Positions 3,845 through 30,738 of a stretch of 38,580 nucleotides of DNA are shown here, in pieces (position 1 is the first letter of the stretch; the number at the start of each line of letters is the position of its first letter). The DNA comes from Polyangiaceae bacterium (GTDB taxonomy: Bacteria > Myxococcota_A > Polyangia > Polyangiales > Polyangiaceae): contig JANXOF010000009.1 of NCBI GenBank assembly GCA_025353725.1, positions 1 to 38,580 on the forward strand. The letters run 5' to 3'. A program made the position numbers and the translations under genes. The notes under the pieces are model-generated. The model was not told where the DNA came from. It made no database searches and saw nothing but the letters and a program-made list of their open reading frames with translations.

Positions 3845-5371
3845 TTACGCGCGGGAAATCGGGGTTCCCTCTTGCACGGGGAGTTCGAGGACAAACCGAG
3901 CGCCTTGCGTGTGCGAGGCGTCGACAAAAACGCGGCCAGAGGCACTCTCGACGATCCCTTTGCACACGGCGAGGCCAAGGCCTGTGCCCGTGCCTACGTC
4001 TTTCGTCGTTACGAACGGGTCGAAGATCTGCTCACGCAAGTCCGCGGGTACGCCCGGACCGTTGTCCTCAACCTCGATGCGAGCGTGCGGGTGCGGGTTC
4101 GGGTGCGGGTGCGGGTGCGGGTGCGGGTGCGTTGAGGTTCGAGCACGTATCGTGACGACGTGCGCGGAGTCGTGCGGGAACTCCGCGAGCGCAGCGGCGG
4201 CGTTGAGAAGCAGGTTTAAAAAGACCTGGGTCAAGCGTTGGGGGGATAGAAGTACCCGCAGGCCCGAGTCAATATCGATGGTAAGAGTGATGTCTCGAAA
4301 GTCTTTTTGCGGTCGCACGAGTGCGACAACGTCCTCCACGACGTCGCGAACGTGTGCGGAAGCTTCTCCCGCAGTCGACGGAGAAGCGCTTTCCGGGCGT
4401 GCGTAGTCAAGGAGATCACGCACGACGACGTGAATCCGCTCAGTCTCCTTGCGCATGCGCTGTAGGAAGTCGACTCGAATATCCTCTGGCGTTTCCTTGT
4501 CATCGAGCAGCTCGTGCATTCCCATAATCGCTGTAATCGGATTGCCGATTTCGTGCGCTACCCCTGCGGCGAGCCGCCCGACGCTGGCCATGCGTTCGCT
4601 TCCCTCTAGCTGCGTTCGCGTTTCACCCAAGTGCCTCGTCGTGGTGCTCAGTTCCTCGACTTTCTCGCGAAGAGCGCGCTCGTCGGCAATGAATTTCAGA
4701 GCCATCGCACGGACGCTCGACCCAAGCTCTTGGAGCTCTCGTGCACTCGCGTCGGGCAAATCGAACGAGCGCGCGCCGCTCGCGACGCGATCGGCTGCCC
4801 GCGCAAGTTGCTCGATAGGGCTCACGATGGCGCGCGTCAGAGCGATGTACGCGAAGACAAGAAGCGCCAACGCGAAGACGCCCATGTAGAGAGCGACGCC
4901 GCGAACCACGTCGATCGAGCGTGCGGTTTCGTCCGAAGTCCGAACGCGGAGGACAACGGCGCGGTCTCCAATCGGAAGCGTCAGGTCGAGTGCGCGGGAC
5001 CCGTTTCGCGGAGCCACGCGGAGGAACGTCTCGGCGTACGGTTTCGTCGGGGCTCTGAGCGTCGCAAGCTCCTTGGGAGACCCCGCTATGGCCATAGGCT
5101 CGCCGCTGTCCTGGCCGTCGTAGAGAGCTATCGCAACCGCGCCTCCGTCGCCGACGTGAGACGCAAGCGTCCTCCGTACAGACTCGTCGGGAGAGTCTCG
5201 GATGTGAACTTTGATGGCCCGGCCGAGCGCTCGCGCCGCCTCTTCGCGCGCCGCTAAGGACGTCGCCCGGGTGACTTGTGCGATAGCAAAAAAGAGAGGG
5301 ACGTACGCGACGACGATGACGCCAGCCAAGGCGAGCAGAATCGTTAGGCGAAGCCCGGGGCGCGTCGCCAC
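3845..5371 (-). CDS. Sensor histidine kinase in the feoAB operon
   Basis: A 508-residue membrane histidine kinase. Transmembrane helix 1 is at about 9-31, a periplasmic sensor of about 130 residues follows, then helix 2 at about 160-182, HAMP (about 183-236), a short coiled coil, HisKA with the phospho-accepting H273 in AHEIGNP, and HATPase_c with N box (NLLLNAAAAL), DNGPGVP and GTGLGLAV. A His-Pro repeat sits inside the ATPase domain at about 414-429 (see the repeat entry). The GTG start lies 4 bp past the feoB stop, so it is the third gene of feoA-feoB-HK. No response regulator is encoded in the window, so the partner is unknown. Iron sensing is inference from the operon only. Confidence 0.88.
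   Translation of the reverse strand: MATRPGLRLTILLALAGVIVVAYVPLFFAIAQVTRATSLAAREEAARALGRAIKVHIRDSPDESVRRTLASHVGDGGAVAIALYDGQDSGEPMAIAGSPKELATLRAPTKPYAETFLRVAPRNGSRALDLTLPIGDRAVVLRVRTSDETARSIDVVRGVALYMGVFALALLVFAYIALTRAIVSPIEQLARAADRVASGARSFDLPDASARELQELGSSVRAMALKFIADERALREKVEELSTTTRHLGETRTQLEGSERMASVGRLAAGVAHEIGNPITAIMGMHELLDDKETPEDIRVDFLQRMRKETERIHVVVRDLLDYARPESASPSTAGEASAHVRDVVEDVVALVRPQKDFRDITLTIDIDSGLRVLLSPQRLTQVFLNLLLNAAAALAEFPHDSAHVVTIRARTSTHPHPHPHPHPNPHPHARIEVEDNGPGVPADLREQIFDPFVTTKDVGTGTGLGLAVCKGIVESASGRVFVDASHTQGARFVLELPVQEGTPISRA
4085..4131. repeat. Hexanucleotide tandem repeat inside the kinase ATPase domain
   Basis: About 7.8 copies of GTGCGG (plus strand), one of them varied to GTTCGG. 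Read on the coding (minus) strand this gives a His-Pro dipeptide run with one Asn-Pro. The unit is six bases, so gain or loss of copies keeps the frame and changes only the length of a loop just before the DNGPGVP motif of the histidine kinase. Confidence 0.95.
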
Positions 5372-5375
5372 TCGG

Positions 5376-7250
5376 TCAGACGATCCCGAAAAGAGCGCTT
5401 ACTTGATAAACCAGCACAGCCGCCCCGTAGCCGAGGGCGTACGTGTAGGCTACAACGAAGGCGGGCCATCGCCAGCTGCGCGTCTCCCGCTTGACCGCCG
5501 CGACCGTGCTCACACACTGGCAAGCGAGGACGAAAAATGCGAGAAGCGCGAGGCCCGTGCGCGTCGTGTAAACGGCACTTCCGTCGGCCTTTTTAGCCTC
5601 GCGTAGGCGTGAGGTCAGCGGCGCTGGGTCGTCGGCCGCGTTCTCGACGCCGAAGATAACGCCCATCGTTCCGACCATCACTTCGCGGGCGCCAAACGAA
5701 CCGATAAGGCCGACGTTGATCCGCCAGTCGAATCCGGCCGGTCGCGTCAAAGGCTCGAGCGCGCGGCCGATGGTGGCGGCCACACTACGTTCGATGCCCG
5801 ACCCATAGCGGGCAGTAGGCATCGGGACCGAGAGCATCATCCAGAGAATGGCGGAGACAACCAGGATCGTCGTCCCGACATCACGCAAAAATCGTCGTGC
5901 GGCGAGTACCGCCTTTCGTGCCACGACACGCGGCGATGGCAGCCGATACGACGGGATTTCGAGAACGAGCGGAAGACCCTTCCCCTTGGTCACCGTGCGC
6001 CGAAGAACCCACGACGCGAGCAGTGCTGTCAAGATGCCTGTAAAATACAATCCTACGAACATACCCGAACGGAAAACCGCTGAGCGATGGCTGAAGAACG
6101 TCGCGAGTACGAGGCTGTAAGTCGGTAACCTCGCCGAGCACGTCATAAGCGGGAGTACGAGGATCGTCGTGAGTCGCTCGCGTGGGTCGCGCACCACTCG
6201 CGTCGCGGCAATCGCAGGTACCGCGCACGCGTGACCCATGAGGAGTGGCAAAAAACTCCGGCCACTTAGGCCAAGTGCGCGAAGAAGTCGGTCGATGAGG
6301 AACGCGCCGCGCGCGAGGTAGCCGCTTGCCTCAAGGAGTTCCAGGGCGATCGTGAGGATCACGATTTGAGGCATGAACGCGAGCACTGTCCCCGCGCCGC
6401 CCAAAACGCCGTCCGCGAGGAATGACGTAAAGAGGTTTTTGCCAAACGCGCGGGTCAGCTCGATTCGCGCCAAGCCCACAAGTCGTTCCATAAAGCTCGA
6501 CGCGGGATCTGCTGCTAGAAACACAAGGGCAAAGAGTAGCCCCATAATACCGATGAACAGAAACGGACCGACCACAGGGTGAAGGAGTACCGAGTCGATC
6601 TGAGCCGTCGCGCGTCGGCGGCGGAGTTCTCGTCCGCTTCCGACATCCTTCACGACCGACCGCGCGAGGCTCGAAGCGTCGAACGCGCCGTCTCCCTGCT
6701 TGAGCGGGCCCCCACGATGGCAGTCTTCGATGGCGGCCAGCACGATGGCTTTCGTCGTCCGTGAGCGGGCGTCAACGAGGACGACGGGTGCACCTAAGGC
6801 CTCTTCGAGGGCTTTGATGTCGACGGTGTGGCCCTCGCGTCGAAGCACGTCCGCGTGGGTAAGCAGGACTAAAAGCGGCGTGTTTCGTCGAAGGAGCTCA
6901 GCGGTAAGGCGAAGCCCTAAAGCCAAACGCGTGGGGTCCAGCACCTGTACGATAACGAGCGGCCGTTCGTCCAAGGCCAGCGCGTCTAGAAACCCGCGTG
7001 CGACTCCTTCGTCCGTCGCCTTGTCGACCGTGTTTTCGACCGAATAGAAGCCGGGCAAATCGGCGAGGACGGCCTTCGCACCCGAGGGTAAGGCCACGTT
7101 TCCTTCGAGAATCTCGACGGTGATGCCGGGGTAGTTCCCGACGTGTGCGCCGCCCCCGGTGAGTGCGTTGTAGACGGAGGACTTGCCGGAGTTCGGTCGA
7201 CCTACGAGCGCGATGGTGAGCGAAGAAACGCTCTGGCGGGTCGCGTTCAC
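5376..7250 (-). CDS. feoB: Ferrous iron transporter FeoB
   Basis: A 624-residue Fe(II) transporter with an N-terminal G domain. G1 is GRPNSGKSS (17-25), switch I is GNYPGITVE (38-46), and G3 is DLPG (64-67). The G4 position reads THAD (131-134), with Thr in place of the usual Asn of NxxD. The membrane part has two Gate regions; GHACAVPAIAATR and PLMTCSARLPTY carry the conserved Cys residues. It is shorter than E. coli FeoB (about 770) but within the range of compact FeoBs. The GTG start overlaps the feoA stop by 4 bp (GTGA), showing translational coupling. It imports Fe(II) across the inner membrane. Confidence 0.95.
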   Translation of the reverse strand: MNATRQSVSSLTIALVGRPNSGKSSVYNALTGGGAHVGNYPGITVEILEGNVALPSGAKAVLADLPGFYSVENTVDKATDEGVARGFLDALALDERPLVIVQVLDPTRLALGLRLTAELLRRNTPLLVLLTHADVLRREGHTVDIKALEEALGAPVVLVDARSRTTKAIVLAAIEDCHRGGPLKQGDGAFDASSLARSVVKDVGSGRELRRRRATAQIDSVLLHPVVGPFLFIGIMGLLFALVFLAADPASSFMERLVGLARIELTRAFGKNLFTSFLADGVLGGAGTVLAFMPQIVILTIALELLEASGYLARGAFLIDRLLRALGLSGRSFLPLLMGHACAVPAIAATRVVRDPRERLTTILVLPLMTCSARLPTYSLVLATFFSHRSAVFRSGMFVGLYFTGILTALLASWVLRRTVTKGKGLPLVLEIPSYRLPSPRVVARKAVLAARRFLRDVGTTILVVSAILWMMLSVPMPTARYGSGIERSVAATIGRALEPLTRPAGFDWRINVGLIGSFGAREVMVGTMGVIFGVENAADDPAPLTSRLREAKKADGSAVYTTRTGLALLAFFVLACQCVSTVAAVKRETRSWRWPAFVVAYTYALGYGAAVLVYQVSALFGIV

Positions 7251-17934: not shown

Positions 17935-19053
17935 TCACGATTGCCGGAGGCGCGCGCTTCCGGTTCCGCGGTAGAGATAGCGTTTGTCCTCGGCTGGCGT
18001 CGCGTGCGAGGTTGAGTCCGCACGGTACTGCGCGTCGCCGATGAGCGCGTGATCCGGAGAGAGTTGGCATGCTGGGTCTGTTTTTGCGGCGTCGCCCGTG
18101 AGTGCGAAAGCCTGACATCGACAGCCTCCGTAGTCGATGCTCCTGCGGTCGCAGCTTCGGCATGGTTCGGACATCCACGCCTCGCCTCGATAGGCGAGCA
18201 TCGCGGGAGAACGTTCCCAGATGTGCGCGAGTGGCTGTGCGCGCACGCTGTCGAACGTAAGTGACGTTAGACTCGTAGCCGCATGACATGGCACGACGCG
18301 TCCGTCGGGGACGACTTGAATAAATCGACGCGCCCAGCCATCCATACACGCCTTCGGGGTGACTCCAAAGTAGTCGGGCTTGACGAAGAGAACCTCCATC
18401 GAGCCTCGCAGGCGCTCGCGATGTAGCGCCGCCATGTGTGCCGCTCGGTCGACCTGTTCGCGACTCGGTAAGAGAAGGTCACGATTGGCCAGCGCCCAGC
18501 TGACATATTGTGTGTTGGCGAGTTCGAGTCGGTCGGCGCGGACCAGCTCTGCGAGGGCGACCAGCTCATCGATCTCGCCAAGGTTTGCGCGATGGAGCAC
18601 GACATTCATCGTGAGCGGAAGTCCGAGGTCTTTTACCCAACGCATGACGGTGAGCTTTTTCGCGTGGCCCGCGTAGCCTGCGACGCCGTCGCCAAGCTCT
18701 GCTCGGCTGCTTTGCACGCTCACCTGGACGTGATCGAGGCCAGCCCGGACAAGGTCTTCGAGACGCGCGCGGGTAAGGGGAATGCCGCTTGTGATAAGGT
18801 TTACATACAAGCCGAGTTCGTGCGCGTGCTTGACGAGAAGCTCGAGATCGCCGCGGACCAAGGGCTCGCCGCCTGTAAGGTGGAGCTGGACTACCCCGAG
18901 GGCTTCGGCGTCGCTGAAGACGCGGCACCACTCGTCGTGGCTTAGCTCGTCTTTATGGGCCGCCAAGTCCATGGGGTTCGAGCAGTACGGACACCGTAGC
19001 GGGCAGCGATACGTCAGTTCTGCAATGAGTGTGTAGGGCCTTGGAGTGGTCAT
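17935..19053 (-). CDS. pqqE: PqqA-peptide radical SAM enzyme PqqE
   Basis: A 372-residue radical SAM/SPASM protein. PqqE makes the C-C bond between Glu and Tyr of the PqqA peptide, the first step of PQQ synthesis. The radical-SAM cluster motif is C17, C21 and C24 in TYRCPLRCPYC. LHLTGGEPL follows at about 57-65. The SPASM part binds auxiliary clusters: CMDGW, VPCHAA, and the C-terminal run SCDRRSIDYGGCRCQAF with a last Cys in DPACQLSPDH. Length fits the family (about 370-390). A GGAGG SD lies just before the ATG. It is separated from pqqD by an opposite-strand gene, so it needs its own promoter in 19054-19156. Confidence 0.95.
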   Translation of the reverse strand: MTTPRPYTLIAELTYRCPLRCPYCSNPMDLAAHKDELSHDEWCRVFSDAEALGVVQLHLTGGEPLVRGDLELLVKHAHELGLYVNLITSGIPLTRARLEDLVRAGLDHVQVSVQSSRAELGDGVAGYAGHAKKLTVMRWVKDLGLPLTMNVVLHRANLGEIDELVALAELVRADRLELANTQYVSWALANRDLLLPSREQVDRAAHMAALHRERLRGSMEVLFVKPDYFGVTPKACMDGWARRFIQVVPDGRVVPCHAATSLTSLTFDSVRAQPLAHIWERSPAMLAYRGEAWMSEPCRSCDRRSIDYGGCRCQAFALTGDAAKTDPACQLSPDHALIGDAQYRADSTSHATPAEDKRYLYRGTGSARLRQS

Positions 19054-19738: not shown

Positions 19739-20041
19739 CTAGCCGCGCGTCAAAAGACCTCGATTGCTGAGCTCTGTCACGAACTCCAAGACATCTACCT
19801 TCACGGTATCGCGCACGCCGCCCACGTGTTCGAGGAGGAGTTCTTCGACGATGGTGTCGACTGCACGTGTGCCGTCGCACTTTTTTGCGATGGCCGCCGC
19901 GGCTTCGTTCAACTCGAGTCCACGCTCGGGATAAAGGATCATGTACTTTTTTCCATGGCGATCAAACTTCAGGCGCGCTTTCGCGGCAAGCTTAGGAATG
20001 AAAGTGCCGTTCACGGTGACTGGGGACTTCACGTCCGTCAC
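19739..20041 (-). CDS. pqqD: PQQ biosynthesis peptide chaperone PqqD
   Basis: A 100-residue PqqD, the RRE-fold chaperone that binds PqqA and presents it to PqqE. The signature parts are IPKLAAKARLKFDRHGKKYM, LYPERGLELNEAAAAI, and CDGTRAVDTIVEEL followed by an ending helix and LSNRGLLTRG. The GTG start at 20041 is chosen because it overlaps the pqqC stop by 4 bp (GTGA), as expected for a coupled operon, and because PqqD proteins have about 90-100 residues. The frame is open far upstream, but that part lies inside pqqC. Confidence 0.92.
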   Translation of the reverse strand: MTDVKSPVTVNGTFIPKLAAKARLKFDRHGKKYMILYPERGLELNEAAAAIAKKCDGTRAVDTIVEELLLEHVGGVRDTVKVDVLEFVTELSNRGLLTRG

Positions 20042-20742
20042 GTAAGTGGGTGTGCCGTGCAGAGGGCATCGAGAAGTGCCCATAAGATGTGCGTCTTCGC
20101 GATAAGTGCGGCGATGCAGCTCTCCTGCGCGGCGCGCGTCACCGCATGCGCTAAGACGTAACCGATAGCTTCCTGGGAGTCGTCGCGCGCTCGTATCACT
20201 CGTCCGCGAAAATACGCGAGCGTCTCCGCCTCGACCCACGGATAGTGCATTTCCCAGGCTGCGATACGAGTCGCCATGAGATCAGGAGAGAAGAATTCGG
20301 TGAGTGACGAGGCAACTGCTTCGACGAGCGGGCGCTCGCGAACTAGCTGAACGTAGGCGTCGCATGCGAAGCGGACGCCGGGCAGCACGCCTCGGAGTGA
20401 CGACACCTCGTCGACGTCGAGGCCTACCCCGCGGGCAAGCCTTAGCCATTGCGCAAGCCCTCCTTGTCCCTCGGCGAGACCGTCATGATCGTGGAGGCGG
20501 CGAATCCACATCCTCCGAAATGCGGGGTCTTCAGACTTTGAAAGAATGACGGCATCTTTAATGGGAATACGTGTTTGGTAGTAATAGCGATTTTGCACCC
20601 ATGCTTGGATGTGTTCGCGTGACAGCAGCCCCGCGTGCATCGCGAGGTGAAAGGGATGGCGGTCGTGGTAGCGCGCGTCACCTTCGGCCTTCAGGCGCGC
20701 CATGAACGCATCAGAGTCGAGCCGATTCGAGTCGCTCACCAT
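20038..20742 (-). CDS. pqqC: Pyrroloquinoline-quinone synthase PqqC
   Basis: A 234-residue PqqC, the cofactor-free oxidase that closes the ring and completes PQQ by an eight-electron oxidation. Recognisable stretches are RYHDRHPFHLAMHAG near the N-terminus, QAWVQNRYYYQTRIPIKDA and RRLHDHDG, then FEFS-like TEFFSPDLMATRIAAWE and HYPWVEAETLAYFRGR. The start at 20742 gives the normal length, and its ATG overlaps the pqqB stop by 7 bp. The frame is open to 21036, but that part is inside pqqB. Confidence 0.95.
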   Translation of the reverse strand: MVSDSNRLDSDAFMARLKAEGDARYHDRHPFHLAMHAGLLSREHIQAWVQNRYYYQTRIPIKDAVILSKSEDPAFRRMWIRRLHDHDGLAEGQGGLAQWLRLARGVGLDVDEVSSLRGVLPGVRFACDAYVQLVRERPLVEAVASSLTEFFSPDLMATRIAAWEMHYPWVEAETLAYFRGRVIRARDDSQEAIGYVLAHAVTRAAQESCIAALIAKTHILWALLDALCTAHPLT

Positions 20743-21644
20743 GAGATTTCCATTCCGTCGACCGCGACCTCCCAGCCCGCAGCCTCCACTGCCCGGCGCT
20801 CCTCGCCTGGGCCGAGGATGGGATTCGTGTTGTTGATGTGCGTATAGATCTTGCGTGCGGCAACGGACGCGAGACCTTCGAGACTTCCGTAAGGGCCGCT
20901 GATGGGCATATGAGCCATATCCTTGGCGACTGACTGCGAGAGGCTTTGTCTCACGAGCTCGTCTTCTGCGTAAAAGGTGCCATCGAAAAGAAGGACCGAA
21001 CATCCCGACAGGTCGACGCCGTTGAGATTGGCGCACGCGGCGGCGTACGTCAGAGCTGGCGAGTCGTGTGCGTCCACCTCCCGGAGCGATAGTCCGACGT
21101 TGTCTTCACTGCTCGAAGCGGAACGCCCGATGAGGTGCACGGGCAGCTTCCCCGGGACGGCGAAGGGAAGAACGCGAACGCCGAGAGAGTCTCCGGCTGC
21201 GTCGCGAAGCTCGATCTCCGTTCCGAGGGCAAGGGGCCGGAAGACTACCTGGCCGTCGAAACGCTTGAGCGTTCGAAGGAGGACGCTCGCTTCAAGCCCT
21301 GCCCACACAGAAGCTGTCGCGTACAGCGCAAAGGGCTGAGACTCTCGCATCGAAAAAAGCCCGAGAATGTGGTCCATATCGCCGTTGGTGAGGACCACCG
21401 CGCCGATCGGAGAGTGTCGCTTTGCTCGCGGCCAGAGCGCTGGGGTGGCTTGGATTTGGGCGAGCACATCGGGTGAGGCGTTTACCAAAGCGAAACGCTC
21501 GCCATCCGAAGTGACGGCGAGAGAGTCCTGGGTGCGCGAGGTGAAGCCAGGCCGCCCCTCACGAACCGCGACGCATCCGTCGCATCCGCAGTTCCACTGG
21601 GGAAACCCACCGCCCGCAGCCGAGCCCGTTACGATGGCACGCAT
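20736..21644 (-). CDS. pqqB: PQQ biosynthesis protein PqqB
   Basis: A 302-residue metallo-beta-lactamase-fold protein. PqqB hydroxylates the cross-linked Glu-Tyr intermediate. The N-terminus has GSAAGGGFPQWNCGCDGC, with the structural zinc Cys cluster. The metal-site region reads LTNGDMDHILGLFSMRE. Further family stretches are NVGLSLRE, LLFDGTFYAEDE and a C-terminal HINNTNPIL motif. It is first in the pqqB-pqqC-pqqD run with overlapping genes. No pqqA lies directly upstream as it usually does (see 23274-23438). Confidence 0.95.
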   Translation of the reverse strand: MRAIVTGSAAGGGFPQWNCGCDGCVAVREGRPGFTSRTQDSLAVTSDGERFALVNASPDVLAQIQATPALWPRAKRHSPIGAVVLTNGDMDHILGLFSMRESQPFALYATASVWAGLEASVLLRTLKRFDGQVVFRPLALGTEIELRDAAGDSLGVRVLPFAVPGKLPVHLIGRSASSSEDNVGLSLREVDAHDSPALTYAAACANLNGVDLSGCSVLLFDGTFYAEDELVRQSLSQSVAKDMAHMPISGPYGSLEGLASVAARKIYTHINNTNPILGPGEERRAVEAAGWEVAVDGMEISW

Positions 21645-21788: not shown

Positions 21789-23229
21789 ATGAAACTTTCT
21801 CTCCTCGTTCCGCCCGTTGGACTCGGATTCGTGATTTCGGCTCTCGTCGCTTCTTCCTTTGCGCCGGCTTGCGGCAGCGCGGGGAATAGCACCTTATCGG
21901 TTCGATCCGTACGCCGCGACGCTAAAAGCCGACCCCTCGAAGACGCTCGCTAAGACGGGTCCTCTTGCCGGGTCTGACGCGTACAAACAGCCGCCTATCA
22001 AACTGGTGATTCGCGGTCTCCCGAGTGATGGGCGCCATCCACTCAAGAAATTCGTCTTCGACAAACGAGACCCGTGGACGATGTACGTGAACCTTGGAAC
22101 GGCGTCGGACGTGTGTGAGCAGGGGGCCGGCGCACGGCCTCCGGCTGGATTCCCCTTCCCATGCCCCGAGGCTGAAGAGGGAAGCCCGCGCGGATCGATT
22201 CGCAAGTACACCCTCGCAGGCCCCGATCACGTAGGGGGCGCGTTTACGACCTTCGCCAGAGGTCTGCGAAATTCGATGGCGCTCGCGGTTCATCCGACCT
22301 CGAATTTACTCATTCAGGGGGAAAACTCGCGAGATTCGATCGATAAGCTCGACGCCTCGCTCAAGGATCAAGAAGGCGACCTTCCGCACGAGGAGTTGAA
22401 TGTAATTACCCAAGGCACCCACTACGGTTGGCCTTACTGCATTGATAATGGTACGCCGAATCCTGAATATCGTGGTCGTGTGGACTGCGCGAATTATAAG
22501 ACGCCTGCGCTACTTTTGCCGGGACATGCGGCTCCTCTCGGGATGAATTTCTATACGGGAGCGATGTTCCCTGCGGCCTATAAGAACCATCTGCTCGTCA
22601 CGCTTCACGGATATCGCGAATATGGGCACCGGCTCATGCTCGTGCCTGTCGACGCGCAAGGCGTGCCCGGAGTCGGCGAGCCGCTCGATATTCTGCGAGG
22701 GTGGGACAAGAGCGCGGATGGGCGCGACCCACAAGGCGCCCCGGTCGACGTGATCGTCGCCAGGGATGGCTCACTTTACGTGACGGAGGATAAAAATGGC
22801 GACGTGCTCCGCGTCTTCTTTGACGCGCGCCTTGGAGATGGCGCCCCAATGCGACCGCGGCCACCCTCGAGGCCGGTGGTAAGTGCCGACGAGCAGGCAC
22901 GCTGCGCGGCTCTCGCGGGTCGTACGGACGATTTTTCTCGCGTGCAACGTGACGTTATCGATACCGCGTGTGTAAGTTGTCACGGTGCAGGACCGGGCTA
23001 TGCGGGCGGTCTTGCCCTGTTCAAGTGCGATGCCGTGGGTAACGCAAAGCGACTTACGACGGCGCGCGGGGGCGGCCGTGGAGCCTACGTGTCGGGCGGC
23101 GATTTGGGTAGCGAGCTTCTCTTGCGGCTCAAGGGTCAAGGCTTCCCGCAAATGCCAGCGGGCGGCGTGAGTCCTGAGGCTCTCAGTGAGGTTGAAACTT
23201 GGATTCGCGCAGGCGCCCCGCTTCCGTAG
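21789..23229 (+). pseudogene. PQQ-type sorbosone/glucose dehydrogenase with cytochrome c tail, deleted and frameshifted
   Basis: An ATG at 21789 opens a good lipoprotein signal peptide ending at SSFAPACGS. From about 21890 the matching enzyme sequence is in another frame, and about 100 N-terminal residues of the beta-propeller are missing: it picks up at YRFDPYAATL, which corresponds to the strand before the LPSDGRH region. The rest is well preserved: NSMALAVHP, ELNVITQGTHYGWPYC, GAPVDVIVARDGSLYVTEDK. A C-terminal c-type cytochrome domain has CVSCH and a distal FPQMP. In a separate frame the open part runs 21859-23229 (456 codons) from an ATG. The family is the soluble PQQ-dependent sugar dehydrogenases. 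An assembly or sequencing error cannot be excluded. Confidence 0.8.
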
Positions 23230-23273
23230 CTTCCGGCGCTCGACAGGCGCACACTGTGTGTCATAGTCTGACG

Positions 23274-23438
23274 ATGCTCACGAAGACCTGGAACACGCCG
23301 CTGGCGATCGAAATCAAGATGGACGCCGAGGTCTCGTCTTACCAGGACGATAGCTACGATCCCGTAAAAGAGGGACCGCACTTCGTCTCCAATGAAGCTG
23401 CCGAGAGCCTTGCGCACCGAAGTATCCCGACATCCTGA
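23274..23438 (+). CDS. pqqA: PQQ precursor peptide PqqA
   Basis: A 54-residue peptide, small enough to be missed by automatic calling. Residues 6-23 follow the PqqA pattern: W6-x-x-P9-x-x-x-E13-I14, then E19-V20-S21-S22-Y23. E19 and Y23 stand in the E-x-x-x-Y spacing that PqqE cross-links, as in the known Methylorubrum PqqA (W, P, EI, then EVTSY). It is longer than classical PqqA (22-40 residues) because 31 residues follow the Tyr. It lies 44 bp behind the damaged dehydrogenase and 72 bp before the S9 peptidase, on the opposite strand from pqqBCDE. No strong SD is visible. PQQ would be built from E19 and Y23. Confidence 0.82.
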   Translation: MLTKTWNTPLAIEIKMDAEVSSYQDDSYDPVKEGPHFVSNEAAESLAHRSIPTS

Positions 23439-23510: not shown

Positions 23511-25814
23511 ATGCGAGCGCTCGTTTTGTTTGTCGTCTGGCTAGCTCTCGCGAGCGGCTGCGGCGGGTCCACCCCAAGGGTTTCGTCAACCGGCTCGCAC
23601 GCGGGTCCCTCTGCCAAGGGCTCGTCGTTGTCGCCATCGCTCTCGAACGAGACAAGGGTCGTGGTGGGCGGACCTGAAGCGAGCCGAATGACGTTTGCGC
23701 GCATCGCGAAGTATCCAGAGCCCGGGTGGAACGTTCCGCGTCATGTCGAGCATAGTCCTGATGGAACGTCGGTGACTTTCCTCGCGAGTGAATCCGGCGA
23801 CGAGACGCTCTCGCTCTTTGCCTTCGATAGGCGGACCGGGCGGAGCGCGCTTCAGCTACGCGCGGGGGATCTCACCTCTTCTCCTTCCGGCGTCGCGCTA
23901 TCGCTCGATGAAGAGCTTCGTCGCGAACGACAACGCGACCGAAGCGAAGGCATCACGAATTATGTGTGGGCCAAGCGAGCGCCTGTCCTTGTCGTGCCTT
24001 ATCGTGGCGACGTCTTTGTGCGCGACGCGCGCCCGGGCCGCCCGGCAGGCGTGCGAGCTTTGACGACGACGCCCGAGACCGAGCTGGACGCAAAGCCGTG
24101 CGATACGGGCGAGCGCGTTGCCTTTGTCCGAAAGGCCGAACTCGTCGTTGTCGATGTCGCGACCGGTCGAGAGATCGCCGCCACACGCGGCGCTGCGGCG
24201 TCTGTGACTCGTGGGCAAAGCGACTTTAATGGACAAGAAGAATTCGGTGAACCAAGTGGGTTTTGGTGGTCACCGCGTTGTGACCGAATCGCGTATCTCG
24301 AGGTCGACGAGCGGCCGGTCGCCAGCGTTCCCGTGCTTGGTTACCGAAACGGCAATCCCGATCTGATGATGCAACGCTATCCGCGTTCGGGCGCGCTCAA
24401 TCCCGTCGTTCGCGCGGGCATTCTCGACCTCGCCACGAACACGACGACGTGGATAAAGTCCCCGGAAAAAGATGAGCAATACATGGGTCGTTTCGCGTGG
24501 AGCGACGACGGCACATCGCTTTATCTCCAGAGTCTGTCGCGCGATCAGAAGCGGCTGTCGCTTCTCAGGAGTGACCCGCGCAGTGGTCTTACGAAAGAGC
24601 TCGTTCAAGAGACCTCCCCCGCGTGGGTGTCCTTTTCACCCATGCGAGTTTTGGCCAAAGCGGACGCGATTCTTTTCACGACGACAAAAAGCGGGCATCG
24701 TCATCTTGAGTTGCGTAGCGCGCGCGACGGGAGTGTCCTCACGGCGCTCACCTCGGGGCCGTGGGACGTCGATGAGATCGATGCCGTCGACGAAGAGAGG
24801 GGGCGCGTCGTCGTCACGGGAACGCGCGAGGGACCGCTCGAGAAACACGCGTACGCGGTGCCGCTCAAGGGCGGCGACGTCGTGCGACTCACGTCCGAAC
24901 GCGGGACCCATGCGGTGCATTTCGACTTGGCCGGGAAGAACTGGGTCGATGTCCACTCCGCGCTCGACCGATTGCCAGTGGCGGCTGTCATGGGCGAACA
25001 CTCTGAAAAGCAGGGTGAGCTTCCCGTTCGCATCGACAACGACATCGCATCCCTCGAGCTGCGAACGCCAAAGCTCGTCACGATCCCCTCAGCGACGGGC
25101 GAAACGCTGCACGGGGCGCTCCTCACGCCGCGTGTCGTAACCGGAAGGCATCCGGTCGTGATCATGGTGTACGGCGGGCCCACTGCGCAGCTCGTACAGG
25201 ATCGCTGGGCGCCGCGTCTTCTGTGGCAGCACCTGGCCGATCGCGGGTTTGTAGTCTTCCAACTCGACAATCGCGGAAGCGCCGGTCAAGGGGAAGCGTT
25301 CGCGCGGCTTGTTCACCGACGTCTCGGAACGCTGGAGTTGGAAGATCAGGTGGCTGGAGCAAGGTGGCTCGCGTCGCAGCCTTTTGTCGATCCGGCCCGC
25401 ATCGGGATTTATGGGCATAGCTACGGCGGCTTCATGGCGGCGCTGGCCATGCTCGATACGAAAGGCGTGTTTCGCGCCGGCGTTGCAGGAGCGCCCGTGA
25501 CGGACTGGCGACTTTACGACACGGGCTACACGGAGCGTTTCATGGAAACGCCCGAACAAAACCCTGAAGGTTACGCGGCGGCTGACCTGTCAAAGAAAGC
25601 CGCCAACCTCGAAGGCAAGCTGTTGCTCGTCCACGCTCAAATGGACGAAAATGTGCACTATCAGCATACAGCGCAGCTCGTGGATGCCTTGGTCGCCGCG
25701 GGAAAAGCGTTCGACCTTTTAGTCTTGCCGAGCGAGCGCCATGGTCAACGGGTAGCGAGCACGCGGGGCTATGTCGCGCAGCGCGTAGCGACCTTCTTCG
25801 CCGAAGCCCTGTAG
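23511..25814 (+). CDS. S9 family (DPP-IV-like) serine peptidase lipoprotein
   Basis: A 767-residue exported peptidase. The signal peptide ends in the lipobox LASGC (about 13-17). A DPP-IV-type beta-propeller fills about 60-500, with a DFNGQEEFGEPSGFWW-type region near 240-255, as in dipeptidyl peptidases. The alpha/beta-hydrolase domain follows. The catalytic triad is S637 in YGHSYGGF, D712 in QMDENVHY, and H744 in SERHGQ. Such enzymes cut dipeptides, often X-Pro, from N-termini. It is the next gene after pqqA on the same strand. A role in PqqA processing is possible but is weakened by the export signal. Confidence 0.9.
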   Translation: MRALVLFVVWLALASGCGGSTPRVSSTGSHAGPSAKGSSLSPSLSNETRVVVGGPEASRMTFARIAKYPEPGWNVPRHVEHSPDGTSVTFLASESGDETLSLFAFDRRTGRSALQLRAGDLTSSPSGVALSLDEELRRERQRDRSEGITNYVWAKRAPVLVVPYRGDVFVRDARPGRPAGVRALTTTPETELDAKPCDTGERVAFVRKAELVVVDVATGREIAATRGAAASVTRGQSDFNGQEEFGEPSGFWWSPRCDRIAYLEVDERPVASVPVLGYRNGNPDLMMQRYPRSGALNPVVRAGILDLATNTTTWIKSPEKDEQYMGRFAWSDDGTSLYLQSLSRDQKRLSLLRSDPRSGLTKELVQETSPAWVSFSPMRVLAKADAILFTTTKSGHRHLELRSARDGSVLTALTSGPWDVDEIDAVDEERGRVVVTGTREGPLEKHAYAVPLKGGDVVRLTSERGTHAVHFDLAGKNWVDVHSALDRLPVAAVMGEHSEKQGELPVRIDNDIASLELRTPKLVTIPSATGETLHGALLTPRVVTGRHPVVIMVYGGPTAQLVQDRWAPRLLWQHLADRGFVVFQLDNRGSAGQGEAFARLVHRRLGTLELEDQVAGARWLASQPFVDPARIGIYGHSYGGFMAALAMLDTKGVFRAGVAGAPVTDWRLYDTGYTERFMETPEQNPEGYAAADLSKKAANLEGKLLLVHAQMDENVHYQHTAQLVDALVAAGKAFDLLVLPSERHGQRVASTRGYVAQRVATFFAEAL

Positions 25815-25827
25815 CCTCATGCGTCTC

Positions 25828-28239
25828 TCATCGACAGTTGCCGGGGTCGCTCAGCGCGCGCTCGGCGGCTCCCATGACGGACGCGCGCACGCCTTTCGCC
25901 CGGAGGGGCGCGAGTCGAATTTCGAGATCCGACGGATGAAGAGCGCCGAGTGCGGCTATCGCAGCCATCCCGACCCGATCGTCAGCGGTAGAGGCCGGTA
26001 CGCGAGAAAGCTTCGCGAAGTGAGTGAGGCGATCGATTGTGCTCTGCACGCACATGGCGCCGAGCGTGCGTGCGGCCATGGCGCGTACGTCGGGGTCCTC
26101 GGAGGCGTCCTCCAACCGAGCCGTGACGTGACGCGCTTCCGCGATCGCTTCCGGATGGCCAAGCGCATTCAGCGAAGCCCCCCGAACCTTTGGGCTTGCA
26201 TCGGAGAGACCCGAAACGAGTGCCGCGGCGGACAACGGGTCGAGTGGGAGCGCCCTGAGCGCTTCGGCGGCGGCCAAGCGAACGAAGGTCCACTCGTCCT
26301 TCCGGAGGGCCCTCGCCGCGGTTGCCGCACCGAAGGTCGTCCCCGCGCTCGCGAGGGCTCGAAGGGCTGACTCCCGAACGCGCGGCTCAAGGTCGGAAGC
26401 CGCTTGGACGATGACTTCGGCGAGCGGACCGATGCCCGCCGCGACCTCGACAGCCCGCGCCCTGACCATCCACGCAGGATCGCGGCGTACGAAATCGGCG
26501 AGACGCGAAAGCTCACCGGAGGTCGCCCCCTGGGCACGCGCAAGCTGAGCGAGCGGCTCTGCGAGGAGGTAGCGTGTCAGCGCGTCCGGTTTACGATTGA
26601 GAAGCCGTGCGATGGCCGCGTCGGCCTCGGGTCGCAGGTCGGGCAGCCTTGCGCTCATCGCTCGAACGAGATCGAGCTGTGCTACGTCCGCCCGCTCGGG
26701 CTCAGCGAGCAATGGGAGGAGAGACTCCCGCGTCGCGTTCGCCGCAGCGCGTGCCAAAGCTGCGCGAATGGCACGTCGCGTTCCCGCCGAGCCCTTGCCC
26801 AATTGCGCGCCGAGAGGTTCGATGGCCAGGTTGGGCGCCACCGTGGCGAGCAGCTTTCCGACCTCCGCTCGGCGTTTTTCGTCCTCTGTACGAAGCGCGA
26901 TGACCAGCGCACGCCCTGCCGCTTTTCCACAGCGCTCGAGCCGACCGAGGGCGCGTTTTTTAACCTCTCGATCATCGTCTGCCAGGGCACGTGTGAGAAG
27001 GTCGGCGGCCGTGCCCTCGCAGGTGCCGGCGCTTGAAGCTACGTCGACGGCGAGGGCGCGACCACGGGCATCGAGCGTTTCGTACGCGGTTAGCACTGCG
27101 GTGACGCCGTCCGTCCCGGCCCTGCGGAGAAGTGCGGCAGCCTCGTCGCTTCGCGGCGTGGAAAGTGACTTCGCTACGTTTAAGAGCGTCGCGCCCTCCA
27201 TGTCAAACGCGGTCACGGCCTCTACTTCCGCGATCCCGACGTCGGGCGCGGCGCCGTGCGCATAGGCTTCGTCGAGGACGATGGCGACGCAGGCCGTGCG
27301 AATGGGCTCTGGGAAGAGAACGTCATAAGTCTGACCTGGCTTGAGCGACGCATCTTCGGATACGGCGACAACGAACAGCTTTTCGTCAGTGGCGACGTAA
27401 AACGACTTTGGTGATGTGCCTCGCGGCGTGCGCTGCGGCGGCGAAATCGTTACCCTGATGGCGTGAATCGGAAGCTCTGTCGGCGTTCGCATGGTCGCGA
27501 ACTCCCCGTGGCCGTCACCGCTTCGCGCCTCGCGCCACACCGTGTCGCGGTTGCCATCGGTCAACGCGGCCGCGTGGGGTGAGCTCCCCCCTGTCGCGAC
27601 AAGCACACGCGCGAGAGAGGGACGTGCCGATTCGCTTGGTTTCGCTTCGATGTGGGTCGCGGCGTCTCGCGTTGGCCGTTCCAGGCGTGGCAGCGTTGCC
27701 CCCACGAGCTTCATCGTCGTGGGGTCGAGTCCTTGCACGTTGAGCGGTGTCTCGGCTTGTCCGCAAATACGTGTATCTTCTCGTGATTCAGCGACGATAA
27801 CGAACTTCGTGTGAGCGCTTCGGTCCTTTACGAGGACGCGGTGGCCACTCCGATCGCCCTCGTTGCTATGTATGAGTCCAGTCAATCCCGCGAAGATCGG
27901 TGCTTCGTCCTGCGCCGAAAGGACGGCCTCGAAGGCGAGATCCCTTCGCTGAACATCAGGCACGCGGACGTGAATCACGCTGCGTTCCTCGGCGACGGGC
28001 ACGATAGCGACGGTCGAGCCCGCCACGTCGATCCGCGAACGGTCGATGGCGATAGCGAGCGCTTGCTCTCGCCCGCCCCGAATGACGCGTACGACTCCTG
28101 CCGTCGCGTCGACCTCTACCTCCAGCTTCCCGAAGCCGTGGCTCGCTGGCAACGTTGCGCGAAGAAGAGCGGCCGCGTGCGCCGAGGCGGCGTAGAGCAA
28201 ACACGCAAGGCAGAACGTGACCGTGCGTCTGTAGTGCAT
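25828..28239 (-). CDS. Exported HEAT-repeat protein
   Basis: About 803 residues from the ATG at 28239. The N-terminal signal peptide (RRTVTFCLACLLYAASAHAA) supports this start over the one at 28278. Residues about 215-340 contain a galactose-binding-like (F5/8 type C-like) beta-sandwich, with the DGNRDTVWRE motif typical of such domains. From about 360 to the end there are HEAT/armadillo-type helical repeats, with many LARALADDDREVKKRA-like helices. Role unknown, perhaps an envelope scaffold or surface-binding protein. It ends 13 bp from the S9 peptidase stop, convergent. Confidence 0.82.
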   Translation of the reverse strand: MHYRRTVTFCLACLLYAASAHAAALLRATLPASHGFGKLEVEVDATAGVVRVIRGGREQALAIAIDRSRIDVAGSTVAIVPVAEERSVIHVRVPDVQRRDLAFEAVLSAQDEAPIFAGLTGLIHSNEGDRSGHRVLVKDRSAHTKFVIVAESREDTRICGQAETPLNVQGLDPTTMKLVGATLPRLERPTRDAATHIEAKPSESARPSLARVLVATGGSSPHAAALTDGNRDTVWREARSGDGHGEFATMRTPTELPIHAIRVTISPPQRTPRGTSPKSFYVATDEKLFVVAVSEDASLKPGQTYDVLFPEPIRTACVAIVLDEAYAHGAAPDVGIAEVEAVTAFDMEGATLLNVAKSLSTPRSDEAAALLRRAGTDGVTAVLTAYETLDARGRALAVDVASSAGTCEGTAADLLTRALADDDREVKKRALGRLERCGKAAGRALVIALRTEDEKRRAEVGKLLATVAPNLAIEPLGAQLGKGSAGTRRAIRAALARAAANATRESLLPLLAEPERADVAQLDLVRAMSARLPDLRPEADAAIARLLNRKPDALTRYLLAEPLAQLARAQGATSGELSRLADFVRRDPAWMVRARAVEVAAGIGPLAEVIVQAASDLEPRVRESALRALASAGTTFGAATAARALRKDEWTFVRLAAAEALRALPLDPLSAAALVSGLSDASPKVRGASLNALGHPEAIAEARHVTARLEDASEDPDVRAMAARTLGAMCVQSTIDRLTHFAKLSRVPASTADDRVGMAAIAALGALHPSDLEIRLAPLRAKGVRASVMGAAERALSDPGNCR

Positions 28240-28428
28240 CGCCACACGTCGATATCGTCCACGGCGCTCTGCGTCCACCCGCAGCCCTGACCAAGCGTGT
28301 CGTCAGGGTGGGCGACGGGCCTGGATCGTCGTCGCCTTGCCCGGACGCGACAGCCGCGCGAGTCGCACGGATGTTACTCGATTCTAGACGCACTTGGGGG
28401 TGGCATGTGTGTTGCTCACTCCGGTTGT

Positions 28429-29514
28429 ATGATTCGATCAACACTGTGGGCGTTCGCGACGTTATCGCTCGTTTTGTCAGGAGTCGGCTGCAGCGGCGAC
28501 CTCGCGCCTGCGACCGACGCGACGCAGGAAGACTTGGTGACTGGCCAATTCGCGTTCAAGCCTGGTGTGGAACGCCAAGCGCGATTTTCAGCCGACAACG
28601 GATACTGGCTCAGCCTTCTTTCTGGAGCCTCGTACGCGAAACCGGAGGCCTTACTCGGGCCGACGGGCGCGTTTGCGGGGGTGGGAATCGACCTCTCCAA
28701 GCCGGGGTACGAGTTCAAATTTTTCGACGTGGCGCGAACCGATGGTCAGGCTTTTTACCTCGCGACCCCAAACGCGGCCTTCCTTGTTTTTCGGGGGACG
28801 CTCGAACAGAAAGATTGGGCCACGGACTTCGATACAGGACCAAAGGGAGGCCGCGTTCACAAAGGATACGCGGGCCAAGCGGAGAGCCTTTGGAACGAGA
28901 GTGGAATGCGCGAATTCGTTCGCGCGCGCCACTCGAAGGAGGCGCCGGGCAAGCCGCTTTACGTAGCGGGCCACAGCATGGGCGGTGCGCTTGCGGTTCT
29001 CGTAACCCACCTCGCGCTCTTCGACGAATGCCAGAAAATTCCGGGATGGACGGCGCGCTCTACGGCGTCGCCAGGCGAAGCCTGCCGCGCTCACTATGTC
29101 CCCGTCGAAGCGACCTATACCTTTGGCCAACCGCTCGTCGGAAACAGCGCATTCGCAGACCTTTTAGCCGCTCGCGTGGCAGAGACTGGAGGCTCGTACG
29201 TTCGAGTCGTGAATGCCGACGACGGCGTTCCGGCGTTTCCTAAGGATTTGGGCTTTGTACACCTTGAAACCAAGAAGGTCGGGCGCTCGACTCTCGTAGG
29301 TCTTTCGCGTGCGGGGCGCCTCAACGTGGGCGTAGACCCAAAAGGCATCGATGACCGGGTGCAAGATACCGTGCCCGGTCGAAGCATGCCCGCGCCTCCG
29401 AAGGATACGTGCGGAGACCGATCCGGCAACGACCACAACATCACGACCTATGCTTCGAAGATTCGCGCGAGCGCGAATGGCGTCGCTTGGAAGGCCACCG
29501 AGACGTGCCAATGA
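28429..29514 (+). CDS. Class-3 lipase lipoprotein, copy 1
   Basis: 361 residues from the ATG at 28429. The lipobox is LSGVGC near residue 17-22. The lipase_3 (alpha/beta-hydrolase) domain shows VFRGT, then HKGY, the nucleophile elbow GHSMGG with S183, a TFGQP strand, an Asp in VVNADDGVP, and the His in GNDHNITTY. These three are the likely triad. It is a surface or periplasmic lipase or esterase. The frame is open further up to 28297, but that lacks a signal. It is followed by a close paralogue 150 bp away, on the same strand. Confidence 0.88.
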   Translation: MIRSTLWAFATLSLVLSGVGCSGDLAPATDATQEDLVTGQFAFKPGVERQARFSADNGYWLSLLSGASYAKPEALLGPTGAFAGVGIDLSKPGYEFKFFDVARTDGQAFYLATPNAAFLVFRGTLEQKDWATDFDTGPKGGRVHKGYAGQAESLWNESGMREFVRARHSKEAPGKPLYVAGHSMGGALAVLVTHLALFDECQKIPGWTARSTASPGEACRAHYVPVEATYTFGQPLVGNSAFADLLAARVAETGGSYVRVVNADDGVPAFPKDLGFVHLETKKVGRSTLVGLSRAGRLNVGVDPKGIDDRVQDTVPGRSMPAPPKDTCGDRSGNDHNITTYASKIRASANGVAWKATETCQ

Positions 29515-29664: not shown

Positions 29665-30738
29665 ATGACAAAAGCGAAAACATGGGCGCTCGCGACCCTT
29701 TCCCTTCTTTCGACCGTCGCCGCGTGCACCACGGAAGGCGAGTCGTCGACCGACGCGGCGCAGGCAGACGTGGTTGCGGGTCCCTGCTCGTTCCAACCGG
29801 GGGCGGAACGAGAGTCGCGCGTTTCGGCGGAAAATGGCTATTGGCTCGCCCGTCTCTCCGAGGCCGCCTATGCGGACAAAAAAGATATTCGTAAAGCCTT
29901 GGCGGCTTTCGGTGTCGACCTCGCGAAACCGGGATATGAATTCAAGTTCTTCGAGGTTGCGCGAACCGATGGTCAAGCGTTTTACCTCGCGACGCCGAAG
30001 GCCTCGTTTGTTGTCGTTCGCGGCTCGCAGCAACTGAAAGATTGGGAGACCAACTTCAACGTGGGGCCGCCGGGCGCTCGCGTCCACAAGGGGTACGAGG
30101 CGCAGGCCGTTAGCCTCTGGAACGAAGGGGGAATGGGGGCCTTCGTACGTGCGCGCCACTCATCGAAAGCACCCGGTAAACCGCTCTACATGGCGGGCCA
30201 CAGCCTGGGTGGGGCTGTGGCCGTGCTCGTGAGCCACTTGGCGCTGTTCGATGACTGTCAGAAAATCGCCGGTTGGGTATCGCGTGCGGGGGCGCCCGAC
30301 ACCGTGACCGATCAAGAGAATTCGCATGAGTCATGCCGAAAGCAATACGTTCCGGTTGAAGCGATTTATACGTTCGGCCAGCCAGTCGCGATGAATACGT
30401 CCTTTGCCGGAATGCTTTCTCAGCGGCTCGCCGAGACTGGCGGCTCGTACGTCCGATTTGTCAACGCCAATGATCCCGTTCCGGCATCGCTTGAGGGTGG
30501 CGGATTTGTTCACCTCGAAAGCCGGATTGAAGGCCGTGCGACCCTTGTAGGGCTGACGCGCGCCGGTCGCTTTCGGATGGACGTGGACCCGAAAGGAATC
30601 GACGACGGCGTCGCGTCTGTTCCTGCGGAAAAGTGCCCCGACCGCGCACTGAACGACCACAGCATTGCGACGTACGCGTCGAAAATTCATGCAAAGGCCA
30701 ACGGGGTCGCGTGGGTGGCGACCGAACCATGTCAATGA
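29665..30738 (+). CDS. Class-3 lipase lipoprotein, copy 2
   Basis: A 357-residue lipoprotein (lipobox STVAAC near residue 21) that matches copy 1 along its whole length, including identical stretches GYEFKFF and ARTDGQAFYLATP. The triad is S180 in GHSLGG, an Asp in VNANDPVP, and the His in LNDHSIATY. The two copies differ mostly in the first 60 residues and in the loop after the nucleophile (SRAGAPDTVTDQENSHES here). A tandem duplication followed by divergence is the simplest explanation. Substrates may differ. No regulator is adjacent. Confidence 0.88.
   Translation: MTKAKTWALATLSLLSTVAACTTEGESSTDAAQADVVAGPCSFQPGAERESRVSAENGYWLARLSEAAYADKKDIRKALAAFGVDLAKPGYEFKFFEVARTDGQAFYLATPKASFVVVRGSQQLKDWETNFNVGPPGARVHKGYEAQAVSLWNEGGMGAFVRARHSSKAPGKPLYMAGHSLGGAVAVLVSHLALFDDCQKIAGWVSRAGAPDTVTDQENSHESCRKQYVPVEAIYTFGQPVAMNTSFAGMLSQRLAETGGSYVRFVNANDPVPASLEGGGFVHLESRIEGRATLVGLTRAGRFRMDVDPKGIDDGVASVPAEKCPDRALNDHSIATYASKIHAKANGVAWVATEPCQ

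Follow-up and report, generated by a model that had tools for sequence, protein, structure and literature searches.

Background

Classical PqqA, the precursor peptide of the cofactor PQQ, is short, with 23 aa in Klebsiella, 29 aa in Methylobacterium extorquens and 24 or 39 aa in Pseudomonas fluorescens (PMC2294125; this and the other papers are cited from excerpts). Its reacting Glu and Tyr residues and the roles of PqqD and PqqE have been published (PMC10906245, PMC2294125), as has a conserved QxYxW triad of PqqE, which in the accessible portions of the open-licence literature is tied by name to this enzyme only in PMC10906245. In Methylosinus trichosporium OB3b, pqqA lies apart from pqqBCDE, was left unannotated and found by hand, and is highly expressed, with a value of 11857 against 166 for pqqE (PMC3615186). 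The Methylophilaceae carry 3-12 copies of pqqA and a single set of pqqBCDE (PMC4109929).

The locus described here lies in a 38,580-nt stretch of a Polyangiaceae genome, hereafter the window. Titles and abstract openings of the open-licence literature hold nothing on pqqA in myxobacteria, Sorangium or Rokubacteria, nor on PQQ in Labilithrix; the distribution of pqq genes was reportedly treated by Shen et al. in 2012. The window PqqA shares W-x-x-P, E-x3-Y and the company of pqqBCDE with classical PqqA (PF08042/TIGR02107), but its core reads KMDAE instead of the G-x-E context of the classical rows compared, its tail after the Tyr has 31 residues, its gene is on the opposite strand and one gene away, and neither model matches it. 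The displaced gene resembles that of M. trichosporium OB3b, although the OB3b peptide is very similar to Methylobacterium PqqA and the excerpted text describes neither a long tail nor linkage to a dehydrogenase (PMC3615186). In the Methylophilaceae the number of pqqA copies is uncoupled from pqqBCDE, whereas one pqqA was found for the window. Five genomes (G030, G292, G293, G109 and G210) have, like the window, an opposite-strand pqqA 5′ of pqqBCDE with an MDAE core, but their pqqA-pqqE distance of 1.9-2.1 kb is too small for an inserted gene of the kind found in the window, where the distance is 4.2 kb with a dehydrogenase in between. Since a displaced, unannotated pqqA has a published precedent in OB3b (PMC3615186), displacement by itself does not set the window apart, as had been claimed from the sequence. 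What the locus encodes is a variation on the established PQQ pathway, not a new pathway, and its PqqA is expected to act as PqqA.

Results and discussion

Identification of the pqqA gene

We are confident that the ORF at 23274-23438 of the plus strand (54 codons, then TGA; product MLTKTWNTPLAIEIKMDAEVSSYQDDSYDPVKEGPHFVSNEAAESLAHRSIPTS) is pqqA, inverted relative to pqqBCDE, parted from them by a probable PQQ-dependent dehydrogenase gene and possibly served by its own promoter. This identification as the 54-aa PQQ precursor peptide, already proposed by the sequence-only reading, is supported by homologues at pqq loci (alignment A1), conservation of the Glu and Tyr, co-occurrence with pqqE and the failure to find a second copy. 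The reading had placed a 54-codon plus-strand ORF 1.6 kb from pqqB, and the distance from the pqqB start codon to the ORF start is indeed 1.63 kb; the two motifs that it named are also there, as W6-x-x-P9-x-x-x-E13-I14 and E19-V-S-S-Y23, with 31 residues following Tyr23. The conserved PqqA core, W6 to Q24 with the reacting Glu19 and Tyr23, corresponds to codons 6-24 (23289-23345, plus strand). The minus-strand location of pqqBCDE was likewise borne out, each gene scoring above its NCBIfam equivalog cut-off: pqqB at 20736-21644 (TIGR02108, 328.7 bits, cut-off 245), pqqC at 20038-20727 (TIGR02111, 297.8 bits, cut-off 240), pqqD at 19739-20059 (TIGR03859, 64.5 bits, cut-off 46), the start codons of pqqC and pqqD being approximate, and pqqE, the radical SAM/SPASM peptide cyclase, at 17935-19053 (TIGR02109, 498.8 bits, cut-off 381.35).

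The 54-aa sequence matched none of the Pfam and NCBIfam families at E values up to 10, and it is in that sense that the gene would be missed by automatic annotation, as had been anticipated. The profile comparison is nevertheless two-sided: within the alignment of 18 relatives, PF08042 matched 5/18 (best E 0.0005) and TIGR02107 4/18 (best E 0.00012), both at E up to 10. Because TIGR02107 has only 21 positions and both models miss most of the alignment, we read the missing match as a limit of the models and not as a biological criterion, and family-specific profiles (A1) were built from the alignment since the curated models alone gave no match. A search of the PDB with the PqqA profile was negative. 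The ORF thus carries the E-x-x-x-Y of PqqA and is the only candidate found in a genome with pqqBCDE, but it matches no curated model and is not the first, same-strand gene of the pqq operon.

Homologues and co-occurrence with pqqE

In a tblastn search of 58 genomes, that of the window included, 17 matched at E up to 1 and 13 clearly (E below 0.02), with E values as low as 1.9e-18 in other genomes. All 13 also have pqqE, which is present in 17/58, so that four of the 17 pqqE genomes are without a clear peptide match; the 41 pqqE-less genomes gave no clear homologue and three weak rows (E 0.66-0.95). The association is strong (Fisher p 7.5e-10, uncorrected for kinship). Weak rows with E of 0.1-1 were dropped (G024, G021, G008, G025 and second matches in G030 and G002), two of them, L016 and L020, being parts of longer frames. 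Among the 12 genomes of the window's genus, nine have both pqqA and pqqE and three have neither. Across the 317 genomes of the class, profile A1 matched at least 46, at least 44 of them with pqqE, which occurs in at least 62; among the matches listed, 44 genomes have both, 2 the peptide only, 18 pqqE only and 253 neither (Fisher p 9e-37, again uncorrected for kinship). These searches scored at most the best 22 and best 6 candidates per genome, and misses are therefore possible. The same ORF near the pqq genes of relatives, a proposed check, was seen by tblastn at 26 of 47 pqqE loci, and PqqC is encoded at 26/26 of those. Eleven of the 18 class genomes with pqqE and no A1-type match were examined: PqqA-like peptides of another type were present in four (L103, L104, L108 and L109), and none was found at the other seven pqqE loci, among them the short L106 (1.9 kb).

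Nine residues (P9, E13, M16, D17, A18, E19, S22, Y23 and Q24) are invariant in 18/18 aligned sequences. The conservation of E19 and Y23 in relatives, on which the first proposal had staked itself, held in every case, E-x3-Y being kept in 18/18 aligned and in 51/51 distinct matches read, although these rows were chosen by similarity. Within the 51 wider rows, D17 is replaced by Asn (M-N-A-E for M-D-A-E) in five (L097-L101), two are classical (L050 and L051), L015 and L097 deviate near the Tyr, and single rows deviate elsewhere in the core. A proper pqqA elsewhere in the genome was also looked for: the family profile, with 80/80 candidates scored, returned one pqqA, and profile searches found no second copy in this genome, which is 97.55% complete.

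Organization of the locus and the dehydrogenase neighbour

The 1.6-kb interval between pqqB and pqqA contains a GSDH-type (glucose/sorbosone dehydrogenase) gene that the sequence-only reading did not mention, giving the order pqqEDCB <- -> dehydrogenase - pqqA. Its open part spans 21859-23229 on the plus strand and ends 44 nt 5′ of pqqA; the PF07995 match (E=8.1e-10; 38.9 bits, cut-off 25) is limited to the C-terminal part of the model, and the product has a C-terminal CxxCH haem-c motif (CVSCHG). The signal-peptide frame starts at 21789, the remainder of the gene, beginning near 21886, uses a different frame, and the window lacks about 100 N-terminal residues found in relatives such as L022; the gene is thus either broken by a deletion or misassembled. 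A search of solved structures (PDB) with this neighbour gave no match at E 0.001. It probably encodes a secreted, PQQ-dependent dehydrogenase with a cytochrome c part.

Thirty-nine genomes of the class have pqqA and pqqE on one contig (excluded are two genomes lacking a pqqE match and five in which the two genes fall on separate contigs): 24 show the classical order, 13, the window included, are divergent, G035 is convergent, and in G272 pqqA follows 6.1 kb downstream in the same orientation. The classical position, first in the operon and on the same strand, is therefore absent in 15/39, and is common but not defining. In G001, one of the five split-contig genomes, pqqA is likewise divergent; its contig includes pqqB-D and the beginning of pqqE. 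All nine pqqA-bearing genomes of the genus have a divergent pqqA, so that an inverted, displaced gene is the rule in this lineage, and among the 39 class genomes divergent pqqA-pqqE distances exceeding 3 kb are confined to this genus, with seven genomes at 3.9-11.3 kb. The claim that the split arrangement and the long follower set this system apart consequently stands in part: the layout is unusual, but divergence as such is found in 13/39.

In 8/9 loci measured, the GSDH gene ends 41-114 nt 5′ of pqqA (the window, L022, L023, L026, L114, L116, L118 and L117, the last from G035 of another genus, where the gap is approximate since the GSDH frame is apparently shifted near its end). In the ninth, L113 (G006), the two genes are 5.96 kb apart, and no GSDH match was found in the 17-kb locus L035 of the congener G011. 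G035 retains the GSDH-pqqA pair even though its pqqBCDE are in the opposite orientation; pqqA thus seems to move together with the dehydrogenase gene and not with pqqBCDE, two genera being thin evidence for this.

Several other features of these loci were recorded. Directly downstream of pqqA, at 23511-25814, lies a DPP IV-type S9 peptidase gene; it was considered as the PqqA-cutting enzyme and set aside because of its lipoprotein-like N-terminal signal (judged by eye) and because a search of the other 67 loci at E 1e-6 gave no match among those listed, many of these loci being too short. Beyond it, the HEAT-repeat protein gene at 25828-28278 resembles, by eye, L114 12210-14435, the ORF directly downstream of pqqA in G002, which suggests an insertion of the S9 peptidase gene in the window or its loss in G002. 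Further on come two ORFs in tandem, 28297-29514 and 29665-30738, which by eye resemble each other and look like secreted lipases, an apparent duplication. G002 also has a pqqB remnant (L114 2392-2591) next to pqqC and, 2.7 kb further, a pqqB match of almost full length (5267-6166), which gives the impression of a duplicated or relocated pqqB. G293 carries a second, orphan MDAE-type pqqA (L115 8906-9043; C1:7192405) about 6.2 Mb from its pqq cluster, with an FG-GAP-repeat ORF ending 38 nt ahead of it and a cytochrome P460/haem-binding gene nearby. Finally, L103 (at 3243) and L109 (at 2793), which belong to family f6 of the same order as the window, have a different PqqA type (W-S/T-K-P...SACAEIGAYAFTA) between divergent pqqC and pqqB.

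The tail after Tyr23

A tail longer than in classical PqqA had been noticed from the sequence, and this was confirmed, the two classical rows (L050 and L051) having 4-5 residues after the Tyr. The nine congeners have 25-36, and Rokubacteria, Elioraea and the other non-myxobacterial carriers of the subtype 9-13. As a distinctive feature the long follower fares less well, since the 31 myxobacterial rows range from 7 to 54 and 26/31 have 19 or more. Pairwise counts on the nine related sequences, which are indicative only, gave a pN/pS of 0.26 for the core (95% bootstrap 0.08-0.62), 0.31 (0.10-0.70) for the proximal tail DDSYDPVKEGPHFV (codons 25-38, 23346-23387, conserved in the genus) and 0.98 (0.74-1.28) for the distal tail (codons 39-54, 23388-23435), which shows no measurable constraint; the distal value was not above the proximal one in a 0.0046 share of bootstraps. 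The first 14 tail residues are thus probably under selection like the core, and the last 16 free.

Promoter and start codon

A sigma-70-like site (TCGACA-16-CATAGT, 23240-23267, plus strand) ends 6 nt before the ATG of pqqA, a weak signal given that one was found in 2 kb against 0.4 expected (sd 0.7). An element CTSGACA, picked by eye and post hoc, occurs upstream of pqqA in 6/13 regions, at 47-52 nt before the core position used as anchor; all six are among the nine congeners, and one of them is G006 (L007), whose dehydrogenase gene is 6 kb off. The pqqA gene may have its own promoter; read-through from the GSDH gene is another possibility, since the gap between the two genes gave no terminator-like site. 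An own promoter would supply the PqqA substrate in excess over its enzymes, and a strong one would fit the 20-fold excess reported (PMC2294125) and the expression values from Methylosinus (PMC3615186). Aligned by eye with L004, the window reads ACG at the aligned ATG and has lost the GAGGAA ahead of it, its likely start being an ATG two codons upstream, near the presumed transcription start; a leaderless message is possible. The changed start and the lost GAGGAA leave some doubt that pqqA is expressed in this genome.

The MDAE subtype and its PqqE partners

The window PqqE has QYVSW, with Val at the triad Tyr, and still passes the TIGR02109 equivalog model. In an unrooted tree of 52 PqqE sequences, the 29 whose genomes have a [KR]MDAE PqqA are separated from the other 23 by a branch with 99/96 support, a split recovered in 98% of bootstrap trees; long-branched rows include L117, L104, L110 and L045. 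The alignment and tree were made without L039, L061, L062, L063, L065, L067, L068, L106, L116 and L118, the repeats L113 and L114 and the unfetched PqqEs of the class search, those of MNAE-type genomes included. The triad Tyr is absent in 29/29 MDAE-type PqqEs (Val, Leu, Ala or His) and present in 15/23 of the others, 8/23 having another residue, with pqqA read for only 12 of these 23. The MDAE type is carried by Myxococcota and Rokubacteria and, within the Pseudomonadota, by Elioraea and a few others. What is new here is this MDAE-core PqqA subtype, paired with a one-sided group of PqqEs lacking the triad Tyr.

The link between the two traits is a lead from sequence comparison and no proof of co-adaptation, since shared descent explains the correlation equally well as function. 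A wider interpretation, which we offer as a speculation more likely to fail than to hold, is that the MDAE-type PqqA and PqqE would form a distinct branch of PQQ biosynthesis, in which a PqqE without the triad Tyr would act on a peptide with a different residue pair before the Glu, the conserved follower segment DPxKDGPxFV of the Labilithrix part would have gained a recognition role absent from classical PqqA with its short tail, and the precursor would be made from its own promoter beside a dehydrogenase instead of with pqqBCDE.

Alternative explanations

The most serious challenge to a working pqqA would be that the gene is genuine but decaying in this genome, where PQQ may no longer be made, and we consider this unlikely. 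The frame change and the loss of about 100 N-terminal residues in the GSDH gene, the replacement of the SD-like GAGGAA and of the aligned ATG of L004, a genome of 6.6 Mb, where the other eight congeners with pqqA have 8.2-11.9 Mb, and a pN/pS of 0.65 for PqqD between the window and L023 could all be taken as signs of decay. However, pN/pS for pqqB, C, D and E is 0.25, 0.20, 0.38 and 0.24 between the window and L022 and 0.31, 0.25, 0.65 and 0.28 between the window and L023, in line with the intact pair L022-L023 (0.32, 0.21, 0.59 and 0.33). The GSDH body is itself conserved (0.15 against L022), as would be expected if the break were recent or an artefact of assembly, and pqqA retains its nine invariant core residues and an in-frame ATG near the promoter-like site.

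That the ORF encodes the precursor of some other peptide product of a PqqE-like enzyme, and not of PQQ, could be argued from the failure of PF08042 and TIGR02107, the K-M-D-A-E core where the classical peptides read have G-x-E, and the partner PqqEs without the triad Tyr. Against this, the local PqqE, PqqB and PqqC exceed the NCBI equivalog cut-offs, E-x3-Y is kept, PF08042 matches five of the 18 relatives and PqqC accompanies all 26 peptide-bearing pqqE loci, and we hold such a product to be highly improbable. A fortuitous ORF whose motif arose by coincidence would account for a short ORF that Pfam and NCBIfam models do not match, but it is refuted by the conservation, with homologues down to E 1.9e-18 at the pqq loci of other genomes and a core pN/pS of 0.26, and is given practically no credence. 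We therefore retain the assignment as pqqA.

Proposed pathway and implications

As pqqA, the gene would yield a 54-aa peptide that is made and cross-linked: PqqD would hold the N-terminal half of PqqA and present the peptide to PqqE, PqqE would join Glu19 to Tyr23, peptidases would excise the joined Glu-Tyr pair, and the cofactor would be completed by PqqB, which has a role in finishing PQQ, together with PqqC. No single peptidase could be named as the one acting on PqqA; the genome has seven M16_C matches, but this family is also found in 9/14 control genomes. Other possible users of PQQ are encoded by PF13360 matches on two contigs (11/14 control genomes also matched) and PF07995 matches on three contigs, that of the window included (6/14 control genomes also matched).

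As both curated models miss this PqqA and most of the aligned sequences, PQQ producers among the Myxococcota and Rokubacteria could appear to be substrate-less. The MDAE subtype, with its changed core context and absent triad Tyr, provides a natural set of variants for the substrate needs of PqqE, and the conserved proximal tail is a test case for a functional PqqA follower.
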